The notes beneath the pieces are model-generated. The model saw only the letters and a list, made by a program, of their open reading frames with translations, was not told the DNA's origin and made no database searches. Shown here one piece after another: positions 8,466 through 31,335 of a stretch of 31,390 nucleotides of DNA. The first letter of the stretch is position 1; each line of letters begins with the position of its first letter. The DNA is from a virus. The position numbers and the translations under genes are program-made. The stretch is taken from positions 1 through 31,390 of IMG/VR virus record IMGVR_UViG_3300043773_000463, one strand, 5' to 3'.

Positions 8466-9818
8466 TTAGGCGAAGGCTGAACGATACGCGCCACCACGTC
8501 GAACCATATCAGGAATCTCGGCTTTAAGGCGACGACGTTCTTGTTCCAAGATCGGGCCAAGTTCATTGCGCGTGACGCCAGCGGCAATGTTGTAGTTCAC
8601 ATTGATCGAAGGGCCAGCGGAGCCGCCTCCTTGGTTCATGTTGGAGTTTGAAACGATAGAGCCGCTGGCGTGTGGCACGAATAGTTCTGGGCCTTTTTCG
8701 CCGACGATATAAGGACTGTTTGCCGAGACTGGGCCACCCATAGCGCGCATACCCAAAATTGCGGTGCTGATTCCTTTTGCTAGAGGAGCGGTGATGGTAT
8801 GTTGAAAAACCATACGAAGCAAATCCATGCCAATTGCTTTGATCGTTTCGCTGAGTTTTTGACCGCTAAAAATTGCATCTTCAAAACCAGAGGCAATTAT
8901 ATCTCCAGCATTTTTTGCTATAACTTGAAGATCGGTTTCAATGACTTTTCTTTTTGCAAGTAGTTCGTTGATTTTAGGAAGTGCAATAAGCATCCGATCC
9001 ATTGCCTCAAGTTGAGCGACAGTTGCTTTTGCAGGATCAAAATTTTTCAACAAATCTTCGTCTGCACGTCGCAATGTTATTAAATTACGCAACTGCCCTT
9101 CAATTTGCATTTGCTGTTCTTTTTCGGTTTTTAACGAAAAATTGTATTCATCATAAATTTTGTTATGATCTAAAACAGCTTTTGTATATTGATCGAATTG
9201 ATCTGTCGCAATAGTTCGCTGATCGTTAATTAATCTTTGAATTTCTAAATCTTTTTCTAAAGCATTTAACTGAGAGCTTTTTGCCGGATCGCTTGGCCTT
9301 CCTTTAATTTCTTGAAAAGTCTTGAATAGCTGTTGAAACTTTTGAGCAGGAGTTTGACCGATTGCATCAAAACTCTTTTTCAATTCATCCATTTGTTTTT
9401 TCGCATCTTCAATTTTTGGAAGATCGCGATCTAGTAGAATTTTATCAGCAATAGAAAATGCTTGGGCTTTTGAAACACCCATTAACGCATCCTTTAAATC
9501 TAAAACTTTGTTAATCGTTCCAACGATTGTTCCCTTAAAAAAGTTCATTACGTCATCAACCGCTCCGGTTGCGCGTGTTACTTTATTAACTTCCTCGGAA
9601 CTTAAACCAAACTTTTTGGAGTTAGCCTCAATGTCCTCGAGAGTTGTGTTAAGGCTTCTGCCCATAGAAACAACTGCACCGAGACCAAAGAATCCTTTAA
9701 GACCCAGCGAAATGCTTCTCGTCGTTCCATGAATTTTTTGCAGCGAGTTTTGCACGCTCGCAAAAGCCTGACGCGTTGCGTCCACCGCCCTGAGTGTAAA
9801 TGTAGCTTCAGCTGCCAT
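8466..9818 (-). CDS. Tail tape measure protein
   Basis: The 450-residue product is predicted to be mostly helical. Residues 1-60 resemble the start of minor tail proteins (TFTLRAVDATRQAFASVQNS). A long Lys/Asp/Glu-rich coiled-coil region follows (about 60-300). Then comes the characteristic C-terminal part: ASGFEDAIFSG, AMGGPVSANSPYIVGEKGPE and a Gly/Ser/Asn-rich linker before NVNYNIAAG. Short tape measures set a short tail; if about 1.5 angstrom per residue holds, the tail would be roughly 65-70 nm. The region 8860-9640, encoding the coiled coil, is far more AT-rich than its neighbours (14 G/C in 9121-9180). The start overlaps the frame of the chaperone -1 extension. Confidence 0.85.
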   Translation of the reverse strand: MAAEATFTLRAVDATRQAFASVQNSLQKIHGTTRSISLGLKGFFGLGAVVSMGRSLNTTLEDIEANSKKFGLSSEEVNKVTRATGAVDDVMNFFKGTIVGTINKVLDLKDALMGVSKAQAFSIADKILLDRDLPKIEDAKKQMDELKKSFDAIGQTPAQKFQQLFKTFQEIKGRPSDPAKSSQLNALEKDLEIQRLINDQRTIATDQFDQYTKAVLDHNKIYDEYNFSLKTEKEQQMQIEGQLRNLITLRRADEDLLKNFDPAKATVAQLEAMDRMLIALPKINELLAKRKVIETDLQVIAKNAGDIIASGFEDAIFSGQKLSETIKAIGMDLLRMVFQHTITAPLAKGISTAILGMRAMGGPVSANSPYIVGEKGPELFVPHASGSIVSNSNMNQGGGSAGPSINVNYNIAAGVTRNELGPILEQERRRLKAEIPDMVRRGGAYRSAFA

Positions 9819-10292
9819 GTTGTTTTCTCAGTCGATTTTGGTGGTTAATATAAGCAAGCCAGCCGTTCATTTCGTCGGCTGGCATTGCGAGGACTTCGTG
9901 AGCGAATTTGCCGAGACGTTCAGCGATGGCATAGACGGCGAGGAGGTCGGCACCTTCATCGCCGCCGATTAGTTTTTTAAGTCGTCGAGCTTCGCGGAGC
10001 TGTCCGCAAGAATCTCATTGGCGACGCGAGCAACCACGTTGCTGTCGGCCTTGTTAAGCAAGGTTGGTTTGTGCTCGATGGTGAACAGCTTCTTACCGCT
10101 CTCGTCCGTGGCCTTCATAATCAGAATGTCCACGAGCAAATCCATATCGTTGTTCTGAGACTTTTTATAAACTCGGTTCTTTTCGGCCAAGGTCATTGGC
10201 GACGAGAAGATCACGAGTTTCCATTCAGGAACTTCGATTCGTTTAGTGCCGAGGTTGTTGAAGTGTTCGCGGACGAGGTCAATGGCTTCCAT
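9808..10292 (-). CDS. Tail assembly chaperone G-T fusion made by -1 frameshifting
   Basis: Near its end the 107-residue upstream frame reads GAC TTA AAA AAC TAA. Slipping back one base on AAAAAAC (9978-9972) avoids the stop at 9971-9969 and continues for 54 codons to a TGA at 9810-9808, giving a predicted 161-residue fusion. The extension contains ERLGKFAHEVLAMPADEMNG followed by WLAY, the Trp-containing style of the T-domain of lambda gpGT. Its stop falls inside the first codons of the tape-measure gene, as expected when the T domain recruits the tape measure. In lambda a similar -1 event yields gpGT at a low ratio to gpG, and both chaperone tail assembly. Frameshift efficiency cannot be judged from sequence. 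Confidence 0.8.
9969..10292 (-). CDS. Tail assembly chaperone, G-like short form
   Basis: This is the zero-frame 107-residue product, starting MEAIDLVREHFNNLGT. Sitting between the tail tube gene and the tape measure gene, it corresponds to lambda gpG. It is highly charged and helical in its second half (ILIMKATDESGK, NKADSNVVARVANEILADS). It would bind the tape measure together with the frameshifted longer form. The ATG at 10292 is preceded by the repeated A-rich 18-mer rather than a Shine-Dalgarno motif. Confidence 0.8.
   Translation of the reverse strand: MEAIDLVREHFNNLGTKRIEVPEWKLVIFSSPMTLAEKNRVYKKSQNNDMDLLVDILIMKATDESGKKLFTIEHKPTLLNKADSNVVARVANEILADSSAKLDDLKN
9972..9978 (-). promoter_or_regulatory. 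Programmed -1 frameshift slippery heptamer AAAAAAC
   Basis: The minus strand reads A AAA AAC in the zero frame, followed directly by TAA. This fits the X-XXY-YYZ rule for -1 slippage, and the following frame is open for 54 codons. It is the standard recoding element of long-tailed phage tail chaperone genes. A downstream GC-rich segment (CGGCGGCGATGAAGGTGCCG) might act as a stimulator, but no clear pseudoknot is evident. Confidence 0.8.
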
Positions 10293-26512: not shown

Positions 26513-27106
26513 TTACTCTTTCGGCGGCGTGGCCCAACCGTGACTTCGGTAGCATTTAGGTAATACAAAGTCTATTTTTGCTCCTTTTCTGCTGTTAATT
26601 GAAAATGGCAAAACCTGTAAATTACGATGACAATGAGAGCCTCCAGCGAACAGCGGAATGATGTGATCAACCGCGTGTTTGATTCCGGTGCATTTGCTCA
26701 CTCGATTTGAAATCTCATAAAAACTATCAACAACAGATTTCCATGAATCGCTTGGAATGGCTTTCATTTGACGCGCCCTCCTAAGCTCTTGGATTGCCGT
26801 GCATCTATCTTTATTTTGAATCTTCCAACGCTTTAGGTTTTCAGTTTTTTTCTCTGGGTTTTTCTTAGCCCACGAAAGACTTTGCTGGCGTCTTTTTAAC
26901 AAGTTTTTTTGCCTATCGTTTTTTCTCCATATCCTGACGGCGTCTTTGTTTTTTGATCTCCATGCCTTCAATCTCTTGTTTTTCTTGCTACGCATTTCAG
27001 CAAATTTTTCCGCCGTAACCCAGTATTCATAATTAATCTTTTTTTGATAACACCAAAACACCATTCCGTCCTCTCTAGTTTCACCCTGTTTGTGTTTTGT
27101 TGTCAT
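26513..27106 (-). CDS. HNH homing-type endonuclease
   Basis: Predicted 197 residues from the ATG at 27106; the open frame begins earlier but overlaps the terminase more deeply. A basic N-terminal helical region (MRSKKNKRLKAWRSKNKDAV, RIWRKNDRQKN) resembles DNA-binding repeats. The HNH motif is visible as V-D-H-I-I-P-L (146-152) and H-R-N-L-Q-V-L (160-166), the expected catalytic His and Asn. It is AT-rich relative to flanking genes (23 G/C in 26881-26940) and overlaps the terminase 3' end by 26 bases, both signs of insertion. It is probably a free-standing mobile endonuclease, as is common next to terminase genes. Confidence 0.75.
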   Translation of the reverse strand: MTTKHKQGETREDGMVFWCYQKKINYEYWVTAEKFAEMRSKKNKRLKAWRSKNKDAVRIWRKNDRQKNLLKRRQQSLSWAKKNPEKKTENLKRWKIQNKDRCTAIQELRRARQMKAIPSDSWKSVVDSFYEISNRVSKCTGIKHAVDHIIPLFAGGSHCHRNLQVLPFSINSRKGAKIDFVLPKCYRSHGWATPPKE

Positions 27107-28898
27107 ACGCGGATTTGCTTGGAGTGTATCTAATAACGCCAGCAATGGTCGCAATGCAAATCATCATTGCTGAAGTATCTAGTCCATGATTCGGAGCATT
27201 GCTTTTCACTTCACGCCATTCAAAAACACCCGTCCGGATCTCGACCTTCGACTCGCCTTTGAGGTGTTCAAGGTAGAGCGGATTGACGTCGGCGGGCATG
27301 AGCCATTTGAGGTCGCCTTTGTTTTCGAGCGCGTTCGCCAAGATGTCTTTGAAGTAATCGCCGCTCCAATCGTAGTAGAATACATCTCCGCCTCGGTAGT
27401 CGCTCACGCGCGGCTCGCTGAATGGAAAGTTAATCAGCGCGTTCGTGTTCTCGTCGCGCATCGTCCACGTCTTGCGCGCGTGTCCGCGCATGCCGCGCCA
27501 GCCGAAGTCCGCGCAGTCACGATCAACGTCGGCGGGCCGGTAGCCTCTGTCCTGCGCCACGCACGAGTCCTGAACCTTGTAGCGATACTGCATTTGACGA
27601 AGCTGGTCGCGCGTCTCGATTCGCCCGAAGTAAAGTTGCTTGTATGTCGGGCCGGTCGCCGAGCTGAAGGCGCCGATCTCTAGCCACCAATGGTCTTGTT
27701 GGCGGTCGATTGCCATGAAACGAATCACCTCGCCCTCGATCTTTTCGCCATTTGCGAATTGCGAAACGGTGTAGTCGGACGCCTGCACGAATAGATTGAC
27801 CACCTTCTTCTCGACAATCCACGGACGCGCTTCGCGCTTGGTCTTGAACTCGATCTTCATCTTGTCGTCGCCTTGCCTGACGTGATGGTTGTCGGCGGCG
27901 CAAAACTCCTCGACGAGTAAACGCATTGGCCGCGACACTAGAGCCTCGACGCGGAAGGACTGAAACTCGATTGGCGCGTCGGGTCGCATTGCCACGAAGC
28001 GTCCGGTGCGCTTCCAAGCGTTGCGCGTCGCGTCTGAGTCCGCGGACTCATGGCCGCAATGCGGACAGCGGAAACGGCAGGACTCGACGGCGCGCGTCAC
28101 GTCCCACGTCTCGTCATCGCGCTTTGCTGCTGCATCCCAGACAACGCCTCCGCGCAGACCTGTCTCGTCGTTTTTTTCGAGAGTGAAAGCGACCGGATGA
28201 ACCTTGGCGCACGACGGACATTCTGCGCTCCACTCTTGTTGATTGCCTTGACGAAAAGACGTGTCCTCGACGTTGCCGGTTTCCAAGTCCATGATTGGAG
28301 CTTGTGACGTGTTGTAGATTTTTGACCGACCGACTTCCTCGAAACGAGACACGCGCGCAACCGCATGACCATAAACATCTTGCCACTTCGGGAGCCAGAT
28401 TTCGTCGTTGATCTTGTAGCGGATGGACTGACTTTGCTGCGAGGAAAGATTCGCGGGGTTGAGGATGAAAAAGAAACCGCCGAAGTAAATCTCAGTCGTC
28501 GTCTTCATCGGGCCAGCGCGCGGCAGCATCTTGGCGACCGGCTTGCAGCTTTCAAAGATCGGGTTAAGCCGCGACTTGGCGTGGCGGTCAATCATCTCGT
28601 CGGTCTGCATCGTCCACGAGATAGGGCCGGCGTCGTTACAGATGAGCCAAGGCACCCACACGTCGGCGACGAGCGTGCCGCCAATCTGCACCGCCTTGCG
28701 GAAATGCACGCGGCGCACGAGCGGGTTTTGCAGCGCGTCGAAGATCGGAATCAGCCACGGCGAAAGGCGCACGTTGAACGGGCCAGACGTAGCGTAGGAC
28801 TCGGGCAATACGATGTGCTTGCGCGCCCACTCGTAGATCGGCGAGCGGTCACGCTTGGGCAGCTTGAAGGCGGCGAGGCGGCGTTCGGTTTCGGTCAT
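27081..28898 (-). CDS. Terminase large subunit, GpA type
   Basis: The 605-residue product is a GpA-family packaging motor with endonuclease. Features include WARKHIVLPESYA and SPWLIPIFDALQNP near the start, K-A-V-Q-I-G-G-T (68-75) as a deviant Walker A, a Walker B-like Y-K-I-N-D-E-I (161-167, D165/E166), C-P-S-C and C-P-H-C-G-H zinc-like pairs in the middle, and a C-terminal nuclease region with VDRDCADFGWRGMRGHARKT and FYYDW. As in lambda gpA the Walker A lacks the usual K before T and keeps a leading Lys instead. It moves DNA into the prohead using ATP and cuts at cos or pac sites. The 3' end overlaps the HNH gene. Confidence 0.88.
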   Translation of the reverse strand: MTETERRLAAFKLPKRDRSPIYEWARKHIVLPESYATSGPFNVRLSPWLIPIFDALQNPLVRRVHFRKAVQIGGTLVADVWVPWLICNDAGPISWTMQTDEMIDRHAKSRLNPIFESCKPVAKMLPRAGPMKTTTEIYFGGFFFILNPANLSSQQSQSIRYKINDEIWLPKWQDVYGHAVARVSRFEEVGRSKIYNTSQAPIMDLETGNVEDTSFRQGNQQEWSAECPSCAKVHPVAFTLEKNDETGLRGGVVWDAAAKRDDETWDVTRAVESCRFRCPHCGHESADSDATRNAWKRTGRFVAMRPDAPIEFQSFRVEALVSRPMRLLVEEFCAADNHHVRQGDDKMKIEFKTKREARPWIVEKKVVNLFVQASDYTVSQFANGEKIEGEVIRFMAIDRQQDHWWLEIGAFSSATGPTYKQLYFGRIETRDQLRQMQYRYKVQDSCVAQDRGYRPADVDRDCADFGWRGMRGHARKTWTMRDENTNALINFPFSEPRVSDYRGGDVFYYDWSGDYFKDILANALENKGDLKWLMPADVNPLYLEHLKGESKVEIRTGVFEWREVKSNAPNHGLDTSAMMICIATIAGVIRYTPSKSAYDNKTQTG

Positions 28899-29113
28899 GC
28901 TTCGTCTTTGGTTGCTCCGCCACTCGATGAAAAGAAAGGTCGTTCGGATGTCAGCTCGATCTCGAAATGGTCATCGACGCAACGCCCAGCCCATGACACT
29001 TGGTAGAGCAAGCAGTTGGGGCGGTAAATCATGGCAATGATGACGCCCGCGTCGTCGCCGCAAGTGCGATGCCAGACCATGTCGCCGAGGCGAAACTTTG
29101 GTGTGTCGGTCAT
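28895..29113 (-). CDS. Small SH3-like protein between terminase genes
   Basis: The 72-residue protein contains FRLGDMVWHRTCGDDAGVII, NCLLYQVSWAG and CVDDHFEIELTSE. This resembles small beta-barrel proteins of the SH3 type (a G-D-x-V start, then G-x-I/V and a Y-x-V-x-W strand). It is coupled to both terminase genes by ATGA overlaps. Lambda has no counterpart in this place. It may help terminase assembly or be an unrelated small regulator; function not recognised. Confidence 0.55.
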   Translation of the reverse strand: MTDTPKFRLGDMVWHRTCGDDAGVIIAMIYRPNCLLYQVSWAGRCVDDHFEIELTSERPFFSSSGGATKDEA

Positions 29114-29751
29114 GCTTCGTCAGAGTTCGCCGACCGCGCCACCATCTCGCTTTGATAGGTCGCTATGTTAGAGTTTATCACCTCGCGGATTTCATCAAGG
29201 ATTAGGGCGCCCTCGACGTTTGCCTCGGCTGCGTTCTTGCCGATCACGCGCTGGCCCAGCTCGACCTCTAGCTTTAGGCGCAGGAGCAAGTCGAGTTTCT
29301 GCGCGAGCGTCGCGAACATATCGTCCACAATCTCCTTCGCAATCGTATCGCCCGCTTCGCGCGCAATCTTCATGTCGCGCAGCGTGATCTCGCGCTGCAT
29401 GAGTTGCGCCTTTAGCTCCGCGAGGTTCTTCGTCGCCGTGTCCTTGCCGATGAGGTTGTCGCCGCAGAATTGTTGCCACGCGACAAGGTTCTCGCGCTTG
29501 CCGTCCTCGTGCTTCTTTGGCGCATCTGGAAAGCGAGCGCGTGCGTCGTACACGGCTTGGCGCGTCAGACCGAGTTCCTTGGCGAGCGCGCTCAGGTCTT
29601 TGACCCAGCCGTCGTCGTTCTGAGATTGAAACTCGTTCAGGGCTTTGCGCTCCGATGTGCTGAGAGTTTTTCCCGCCTTGAGCTTCTTTCCGATGTTGGA
29701 AAGATTAGCGCGAGAAAGAATTTCAGCATCCGTTGGTTTAATCTCAGTCAT
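29110..29751 (-). CDS. Terminase small subunit (Nu1-like)
   Basis: The 213-residue product contains a winged-HTH-type DNA-binding segment, LSALAKELGLTRQAVYDARA with the following RFPDAPKK and ENLVAWQQF, the same layout as lambda Nu1 (winged HTH, then F-P...V-x-W). The rest is helical: NLAELKAQLMQREITLRDMK and DDMFATLAQKLDLLLRLKLE, likely the oligomerisation and large-subunit-binding region. It recognises the packaging site. The order small subunit, small SH3-like protein, large subunit fits a packaging operon. It overlaps the ABC-GNAT gene by 8 bases. Confidence 0.8.
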   Translation of the reverse strand: MTEIKPTDAEILSRANLSNIGKKLKAGKTLSTSERKALNEFQSQNDDGWVKDLSALAKELGLTRQAVYDARARFPDAPKKHEDGKRENLVAWQQFCGDNLIGKDTATKNLAELKAQLMQREITLRDMKIAREAGDTIAKEIVDDMFATLAQKLDLLLRLKLEVELGQRVIGKNAAEANVEGALILDEIREVINSNIATYQSEMVARSANSDEA

Positions 29752-30823
29752 GTTTTATGTATTCAAATCCTGCGCTTATTCTGCGATTAGAATTTGATTT
29801 CATGATTGAATTTTTTCCAGCTTTTGCAACGTGACCGAATCTTGAGCATCTCCATTTTTTTGATTTAGCTCTGCGATGAATCATTGCTGGGTGTGATGTT
29901 GTTGAAAAGTATCTGAAGCCAGACGCCACAACTAAATCAGCCACAAACTCGCTAAGAAAATTACCTATTCCTATTCCTTGAAAATCTGGAAGAACTACGG
30001 TGCGATGCTCTCTTTTTCCATTTGAAAAACTTGCGTGCGGAAAATGAATAAACGAAGTAAACGCAACGGGCTTATCATTCCATGTTGCGACATAACATTG
30101 TGCCGCGTCGCTTATTTTCGCATCTAGATAGTGATGTCCCTTAAAAAGAGTCCACGCTGAATTATTCGTTTTGTAAATTCTGAGGTTGATTGGTGGTCGT
30201 TGCCTAGGAATCCGCCACTCGAAATGATTTGTGCCAACATCAAACACCCAGTCTGGTTGAAGCCAGTCAATGATGTCGAAGTGACACGAAATCGCAACGA
30301 GTTGCGGTGCTTTCTTTCTTCTAATTGTTTTGCTCAACGCAGCGCAACAAACCTTGGCGACGTCTCGATCAACTACGCTTGTAAATTCATCAAATAAAAC
30401 GCGAGAATGATTCGACAACAGGAGACGAGCCAGCTCCACACGAAACTTTTGTCCATTCGATAAGTGTCCAAACGGTTTCAACCAATGAGGCGGAGAAGAC
30501 AAACCGACGCTTGAAAGCATTTCAACCACGTCTTTCGTCGCGTGATCTTTAGAAAAACCGTCGAGAATTGATTGGGTTGGATGCCAATCAAATGAGGTGT
30601 GTAAGTGATCGTTTTTGAATAGTTCGGTGGCGATGGTTGTTTTGCCGCTACCAGACGCACCAATGATTGCGCCGATTGACCACGATTTTTCATCACATGG
30701 AATCGCAACGTCCCATTCGGTCGCAATTTCTTCTTTGTGCGGAACATCAAACATTCCGCGCACTTGATCGACTCTGAAACTAGATTCGATCTTTGTGCGT
30801 CTTACAATGTGACCAGTCGGCAT
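29744..30823 (-). CDS. ABC-ATPase fused to a GNAT acyltransferase domain
   Basis: The 359-residue product joins two enzyme modules. Residues about 45-205 are an ABC-type ATPase: Walker A G-A-S-G-S-G-K-T-T (55-63), a possible Q-loop Gln84, signature L-S-N-G-Q (121-125), Walker B R-V-L-F-D-E (141-146) and an H-loop His181. No membrane segment follows, so it is not a transporter subunit. Residues about 213-340 look like GNAT: FTSFIHFPHASFSN, then R-T-V-V-L-P-D-F-Q-G-I-G-I-G (274-287), where Q-G-I-G-I-G is the acyl-CoA pyrophosphate loop. Mu Mom, which hypermodifies adenine, also has a GNAT-type fold, so base modification is a fair inference. The gene is AT-rich (24 G/C in 29821-29880 against 39 in 29221-29280) and overlaps ParB by 22 bases. 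Confidence 0.8.
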   Translation of the reverse strand: MPTGHIVRRTKIESSFRVDQVRGMFDVPHKEEIATEWDVAIPCDEKSWSIGAIIGASGSGKTTIATELFKNDHLHTSFDWHPTQSILDGFSKDHATKDVVEMLSSVGLSSPPHWLKPFGHLSNGQKFRVELARLLLSNHSRVLFDEFTSVVDRDVAKVCCAALSKTIRRKKAPQLVAISCHFDIIDWLQPDWVFDVGTNHFEWRIPRQRPPINLRIYKTNNSAWTLFKGHHYLDAKISDAAQCYVATWNDKPVAFTSFIHFPHASFSNGKREHRTVVLPDFQGIGIGNFLSEFVADLVVASGFRYFSTTSHPAMIHRRAKSKKWRCSRFGHVAKAGKNSIMKSNSNRRISAGFEYIKHD

Positions 30824-31335
30824 TTGAATCCTTTCTCTGTGAGTAAATCATAAGCCAATTTCTGTTGATCTTCGGATTCACATTCAGCAATCACCTCAAG
30901 AGCACTCACAATTTCGACGTCATTTTTGGATTCGTTTGCATCTTGTTTTCCTGATAACTCATCTAAATCAGAATCACTAAATCCAAGTTGCGTCAGATCA
31001 ACGTCGGCTTCCGACAAAGACTTGAGCACGTCCGCAAGCGAATCGTCCCACTCCGCCAGCTCCGCGCTCCGGTTGTCCGCAATCGCAAACGCCGTCGCCT
31101 CGACTCCTTGAAGCGTCGTGCGCGTGATCTCGATTTCTGTCCAGCCAAGTTCCTTCGCCGCCGTGAGCGTTCCGTTGCCAGCGAGTACGATTCCCTTGGC
31201 GTCCACGACGATGGGCTTTTGTTGCCCGAACTTACGCAGCGAAGCCTTGATCGCGTCTAAGTTTTTGCGGTCGTGTTTGCGTACGTTCGATGGGTCAAGC
31301 GATAGCTCGGCCACGTTAATGCGTTCGATTTTCAT
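30802..31335 (-). CDS. ParB-like N-terminal domain protein
   Basis: The 177-residue product starts MKIERINVAELSLDPSNVRK and continues NLDAIKASLRKFGQQKPIVV, then VLAGNGTLTAAKELGWTEI. This is the ParB/sulfiredoxin-like domain: P-x-N-x-R, L-x-x-S-I-x-x-x-G-x-x-x-P and G-x-x-x-x-x-A. The rest (FAIADNRSAELAEWDDSLAD, LSEADVDLTQLGFSDSDL) is acidic and helical. There is no HTH DNA-binding domain of chromosomal ParB. Phage members of this kind often lie beside DNA methyltransferases or other DNA-modifying genes. It overlaps the ABC-GNAT gene, implying a joint function. It may act as a nucleotide-dependent DNA clamp or nuclease; this is inference. Confidence 0.78.
   Translation of the reverse strand: MKIERINVAELSLDPSNVRKHDRKNLDAIKASLRKFGQQKPIVVDAKGIVLAGNGTLTAAKELGWTEIEITRTTLQGVEATAFAIADNRSAELAEWDDSLADVLKSLSEADVDLTQLGFSDSDLDELSGKQDANESKNDVEIVSALEVIAECESEDQQKLAYDLLTEKGFKCRLVTL

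Follow-up and report, generated by a model that had tools for sequence, protein, structure and literature searches.

We asked what an ABC-type ATPase fused to an acyltransferase does in a phage, and what part is played by the ParB-like gene that overlaps it. The window, that is, the whole 31,390-base viral record that was analysed, carries both genes on its minus strand: a ParB-like protein of 177 residues (30802..31335), whose gene begins 55 bases short of the record's end, and an ABC-GNAT fusion of 359 residues (29744-30823). Gene calls agree with the preliminary description of this locus on coordinates, strand and lengths, and on the 22-base overlap of the two genes (30802..30823). Judged by context, a non-transporter ABC-GNAT protein coupled to a ParB-like protein, this is most likely a DNA-modification module. 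More specifically, we propose on sequence-derived grounds, and with a probability of about 0.6, that the operon encodes an acyltransferase driven by ATP, together with a ParB-like protein as its helper, and that this enzyme would acylate an exocyclic base amine in the phage's own DNA.

Part of this proposal has a history. An ABC ATPase-coupled GNAT, exemplified by Tenacibaculum phage pT24, was predicted to acylate a DNA nucleobase, according to a passage of a 2021 paper (PMC7824862), which cites Iyer 2013 (NAR 41:7635, doi 10.1093/nar/gkt573) as the source of the prediction. The pT24 system resembles that of the window in architecture and proposed function, and its homologous protein matches the window ABC-GNAT at 34.6% identity over 97% (E 1e-46); the core idea of DNA acylation is therefore prior art. 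ParB is not mentioned in PMC7824862, and its passage on ABC-GNAT says nothing of a ParB C-terminal domain, of an exchange in the Mom slot, or of PanD, CoA-transferase or formyltransferase. No experimental test of the prediction was found in the literature searched. Added here are the partner role of the ParB C-terminal domain, the exchange at the Mom slot and the clade-specific donor genes, some of which may be listed as neighbours in Iyer 2013.

The ABC-GNAT protein and its relatives

The ABC-ATPase domain (residues 1-212; 30188..30823, minus strand) has all catalytic motifs, a compact helical subdomain and no membrane partner. It is followed by a GNAT acyltransferase domain (residues 213-359; 29747..30187, minus strand), which is supported by Pfam, by the structural model and by conserved residues. 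The ABC motif set and the GNAT acyl-CoA loop first read from the sequence are all in place: Walker A at G55-T63, LSNGQ at 121-125, Walker B ending at D145-E146, H181, and QGIGIG at 282-287. Among the divergent relatives, K61, S122, G124, D145, E146, H181, Y232, R274 and G283 are conserved in 133 of 133 and H231 in 131 of 133; the conserved residues of the GNAT domain are F227, H231-Y232-L233, R274, P279, Q282-G283-x-G285 and W324. Both domains score above the Pfam cut-off (ABC_tran 8.6e-9, Acetyltransf_1 8.5e-6), and the phrog_11143 profile, annotated as function unknown, covers residues 5-357 (E 5.5e-110). Structure prediction, proposed in the preliminary description as a check, gave a confident AlphaFold2 model of two globular domains (about 1-212 and 213-359; pLDDT 92.7, pTM 0.86) from an alignment of 66 sequences, the window protein and its relatives. 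By VIA, the ABC domain matches ABC NBDs with a Z of 16 over 177 residues; the match list is filled by ABC domains and speaks to the ABC part, barely to the GNAT. COG2401, which we take to be an 'ABC-type ATPase fused to a predicted acetyltransferase domain', shares this architecture by name, and a literature search for its name and number found no functional study.

The ABC-GNAT module is real, old and widespread. Relatives were found in 47 phage records (coverage of at least 80%). Exact peptides located them in 44 viral contigs and a profile in at least 590, and bacterial genomes hold them at 415 places; these last are likely prophages, because most of the genomic loci inspected are close to terminase or portal genes. 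Among the hosts are Actinobacteria, Firmicutes, Proteobacteria, Bacteroidetes, Planctomycetes and Spirochaetes. The two domains can be encoded by separate adjacent genes, as in Streptococcus phages, Lactococcus P335 and pT24 (the published exemplar of which is presumably QAX98348.1); such split genes occupy L046:6001-7070, L049:6001-7055, L217:4004-5176 and L222:4001-5070. The SSU5-like phage-plasmids carry a related locus without acyltransferase (L053:4383-7803), made up of two ParB-like genes, a 212-residue ABC protein lacking a GNAT domain, an 84-residue phrog_796 protein and a second ABC-type protein (phrog_886). As for plasmids, 876 records match, nearly all through the ABC part alone.

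In the window, the gene directly downstream of ABC-GNAT encodes a 213-residue protein with an HTH-like N-terminal part (29110..29751, minus strand), probably the small terminase subunit (cluster c10, between ABC-GNAT and TerL), and the large terminase subunit (GpA ATPase, PF05876 at 2.9e-24) lies at 27081..28898 on the same strand; both are neighbours outside the module. From this arrangement the preliminary description had drawn a link to DNA packaging. Many relatives do sit before the terminase, but members of the clade with a formyltransferase sit after tail genes and others lie far from the terminase in T4-like phages, and a packaging role was rejected on the position of these relatives. 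The AT-richness taken as a sign of recent acquisition fared better for the window copy than for the family. ABC-GNAT has 43.1% GC against 54.7% for the window, and the drop begins within the ParB gene (57.7% at 31036-31335, 41.5% at 30802-31035), the shift in composition falling between the ParB N domain and the C-terminal domain. Recent acquisition fits this copy, but AT-richness is not a family trait, since the difference between ABC-GNAT and its flanks averages only -1.8 points over 134 loci. The window has a second low-GC stretch at 9001-10000 (40.9%).

Coupling to a ParB-like partner

The ParB-like protein belongs to phrog_620 (7e-39), with a Pfam ParB_N match (4e-4) below the cut-off, and the ParB profile A4 finds structures of Noc/Spo0J (2.4e-15). 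As first described, the 177-residue protein gave no match to the central HTH of partition ParB; it consists of a ParB/Srx N domain and a short C-terminal domain of about 40 residues (about 137-177; 30805..30927, minus strand), ending EVIAECESEDQQKLAYDLLTEKGFKCRLVTL. Its structural model, built from the single sequence, reached a pLDDT of 37 and was unusable.

A survey of ParB co-occurrence, which the preliminary description had also suggested, brought out a tight coupling. Upstream sequence was long enough to judge in 191 distinct ABC-GNAT loci, and in 177 of them a ParB-like gene immediately precedes ABC-GNAT or is fused to it. For the other genes of these loci, counted from 150 residues upwards, such a gene stands at that place in only 3 cases out of 577. 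Of the 177 linked loci, 104 have an overlap of exactly 22 bases (ATG in 85, GTG/TTG in 19), which is kept even where ABC-GNAT identity to the window copy has fallen to 37-45%. In two loci (L109 and L179) ParB, ABC and GNAT form a single in-frame fusion, and in L079 the ParB gene overlaps an extended ORF of its ABC-GNAT. Loci without a linked ParB include the T4-like PX29, VmeM-32, P12024S, pT24, L033, L110 and Enterococcus 9184. Tandem ParB-like genes precede ABC-GNAT at L018:1311-2344 and L019:4490-5532, with one 22-base overlap between the two ParB genes and another between the second of them and ABC-GNAT.

The last 40 or so residues of the ParB-like protein, with a motif of approximately xVIxxCxxExxQxxxYxxLxxxGxxCRxxTL, are kept in all partnered loci, and in seven loci they occur without the ParB fold. 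In Komp_PAO1_1 (L048), L036, Porphyromonas 008a (L258) and the gut phages L220 and L221, the domain is a small gene that ends at the ABC-GNAT start, and L125 and L132 carry short forms of it; the ParB profile had missed L048, L220 and L221, which have the C-terminal part alone. The invariant partner is therefore the domain of about 40 residues and not the ParB fold. The initial reading of the locus as a DNA-modification module keeps the support of the ABC-GNAT/ParB context and of the published prediction, but the ParB fold drops out of it as an essential partner. The 42-residue 'acr candidate' of Porphyromonas phage008a (L258:5676-5804) is such a stand-alone ParB C-terminal domain, so that its anti-CRISPR label is doubtful.

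The pairing of an ABC ATPase with a ParB-superfamily protein has a counterpart in Dnd-type systems, in which both, the latter as DndB, are found around DNA modification. Compared by description, those systems share this pairing with the window module and differ from it in their phosphorothioate chemistry, which involves no GNAT acyl transfer (PMC10853773).

The Mom slot and the predicted target

We then considered which molecule is acylated. Ten Porphyromonas phages have the last tail gene in common. Behind it, five of them (006a, 007a, 008a, 009a and 011a) carry ABC-GNAT with a formyltransferase, four (012a, 013a, 014a and 015a) carry a Mom-like protein of 289 residues in the same slot, and the tenth (010a) has fewer than 200 bases left. 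Phages 015a and 008a have flanks with 83-86% identity as far as the last tail gene, and over the final 93 bp the identity is 82%. Relative to the ABC-bearing 008a, the tail gene is 95% identical in the Mom-bearing 013a, against 93% and 83% in the ABC-bearing 011a and 006a, and these identities suggest that the Mom and ABC-GNAT cargoes do not track phage lineage. In Mu, Mom lies likewise at the right end. The exchange suggests, on the strength of gene position, that Mom and ABC-GNAT may do similar work, and it is a separate argument for expecting DNA as the target; the slot may alternatively be a general cargo site, the swap then not reflecting equal function.

Mom of phage Mu (phrog_1384), the product of which is N6-(carbamoylmethyl)adenine, is, like the window protein, a phage GNAT-type acyltransferase, and an HY motif followed by a strand is found in both. 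However, Mom has no ABC domain and no significant sequence similarity to the GNAT domain: hhalign gave a P of 0.099 for this domain against ten Mom sequences and no significant result for the whole protein against Mu Mom, and phrog_1384 did not match ABC-GNAT at E 0.1. It also tells against the proposal that the T4-like Aeromonas phage PX29 carries both a Mom-like gene (36309-36881) and ABC-GNAT (53236-54291). In Microbacterium phage Pickles13 (L259:2469-3621), a ParB-like gene overlaps a Mom-like gene by 8 bases; its product has a zinc-finger-like tail in place of the C-terminal domain of the ABC-GNAT partners.

For a DNA target, the following scenario can be proposed. Dimers of the ABC domain would clamp or scan DNA, the ParB C-terminal domain would dock on the ATPase, and the ParB fold, where present, might add DNA or nucleotide handling. 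The GNAT domain would then take an acyl-CoA and acylate the base, and the modification may protect phage DNA from restriction, as Mom does.

A different nucleic acid may be envisaged. The best PDB Foldseek match of ABC-GNAT is TmcA (2zpa; E 7e-9, TM-score 0.30 over 431 columns), the tRNA(Met) cytidine acetyltransferase, and the TmcA/NAT10 enzymes acetylate an RNA nucleobase by means of an ATPase and a GNAT domain, a pair that ABC-GNAT likewise has in one chain. As a base acetyltransferase of this make-up, TmcA lends the DNA proposal some support; its RNA substrate, a cytosine in tRNA, its different type of ATPase and the low TM-score weigh against that. Several ABC-GNAT loci also lie near phage tRNA genes. 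By analogy, ABC-GNAT could acylate tRNA or rRNA, either to favour phage translation or to resist an RNA-targeting defence. We nevertheless regard an RNA target as unlikely. The ATPase of TmcA is of another class, helicase-type and not ABC, and the likeness, with its low TM-score, is one of analogy; moreover, the coupling to a ParB-like protein and the exchange with Mom point to DNA.

The substrate could also be a protein of the host (its RNA polymerase, or a protein of the ribosome or of a defence system), which would make ABC-GNAT a takeover or anti-defence enzyme. Rac-type phage GNATs modify host RNA polymerase (PMC7824862), and the 'acr candidate' label of the stand-alone C-terminal domain in the Porphyromonas phage would fit an anti-defence role. 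Such a target seems improbable to us: it leaves the ParB coupling, the invariant ABC ATPase residues and the PanD and CoA-transferase donor genes described below unexplained, and the PADLOC match at the ABC level is a weak one, to mad3 (at the ParB level, PADLOC matched a ParB-fused methyltransferase).

Donor genes and the predicted acyl group

If ABC-GNAT acylates DNA, what acyl group does it transfer? The window's own clade has neither PanD/CoA-transferase nor formyltransferase, and a search of the window with PanD and CoA-transferase profiles found no donor genes. The window copy, lacking these genes, would therefore use host acyl-CoA. Across 121 downstream neighbours no recurrent Pfam enzyme family emerged; a PF01144 CoA_trans match on one of these 121 ORFs was not recovered in three further Pfam scans and was set aside.

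Other clades carry candidate donor genes. In a strongly supported clade of 14 members, 8 have PanD and/or a CoA-transferase-III-like gene, as does L071 outside it. When viral contigs were scanned for the CoA-transferase-like protein alone, 38 loci were obtained, three of them cut at the contig end; the remaining 35 all adjoin ABC-GNAT, and 30 also have PanD. In L280 and L282 the best match to ABC-GNAT comes 716 bases past the CoA-transferase start, while in similar contigs it precedes that gene; two copies may therefore flank the donor genes there. All complete PanD copies keep the G-S cleavage site and the equivalents of Lys9, Arg54 and Tyr58 of E. coli PanD, residues that serve cleavage and the binding of aspartate, and the best solved relatives are aspartate decarboxylases (PDB match 4.6e-15). 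PanD is not exclusive to ABC-GNAT, since Achromobacter phage 2-1 has panD and is absent among the ABC-GNAT matches listed. The CoA-transferase-like protein, of about 230 residues, is shorter than known class III enzymes and resembles them weakly (CoA_transf_3 2.2e-8, PDB E 0.005); the Asp of its G-D-T is invariant in 9 of 9 and is a candidate catalytic residue. The activity of this protein is the least certain step of the predicted donor pathway.

These genes point to a putative beta-alanine-derived acyl-CoA donor in the PanD clade: aspartate would be decarboxylated to beta-alanine, the CoA-transferase-like protein would load beta-alanine on CoA, and the GNAT domain would transfer the group. 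In a separate clade (4 of 4 members on the tree), a formyltransferase gene immediately follows ABC-GNAT. The best solved relatives of this enzyme are 10-formyltetrahydrofolate dehydrogenases; the PurN catalytic Asn is absent, and His and Asp are kept in the alignment to 10-formyl-THF dehydrogenase. We tentatively suggest, as a possibility that we would put at clearly under one half, that phages of the first clade make their own beta-alanine-derived DNA hypermodification (PanD, CoA-transferase-like protein, ABC-GNAT), that the second clade adds a 10-formyl-tetrahydrofolate-dependent step, and that the acyl group varies on a conserved core of ParB domain, ABC and GNAT. No literature linking PanD or CoA-transferase to phage DNA modification was found.

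PanD and CoA-transferase are small-molecule enzymes, and the product of ABC-GNAT could accordingly be an acylated small molecule, made from beta-alanine for instance, the ParB-like protein being a nucleotide-dependent regulator. However, few clades have these genes, and most members, that of the window included, keep the ParB partner without any metabolic gene, which makes a metabolite product quite improbable. Finally, some database labels, among them 'ABC iron siderophore transporter', and the ABC NBD fold matches might suggest an ABC transporter component. This is hardly credible and was rejected, in line with the preliminary description: the AlphaFold2 model shows no membrane helix, the operon lacks a permease gene, the genes beside ABC-GNAT are those of ParB and terminase, and the GNAT domain is fused in most members or encoded next door in the split versions.

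Acylation of phage DNA is the preferred reading. The prediction that ABC-GNAT acylates DNA is more than a decade old, and the donor genes now give a specific mass to look for; the Gordonia phages Jace, which has PanD and CoA-transferase, and Axumite, which has the formyltransferase, are fully sequenced and open to direct assay. If true, our proposal would add a CoA-dependent class of DNA hypermodification, found in phages whose hosts belong to at least six bacterial phyla, and would name a partner domain of about 40 residues that is now unannotated or labelled an anti-CRISPR candidate.
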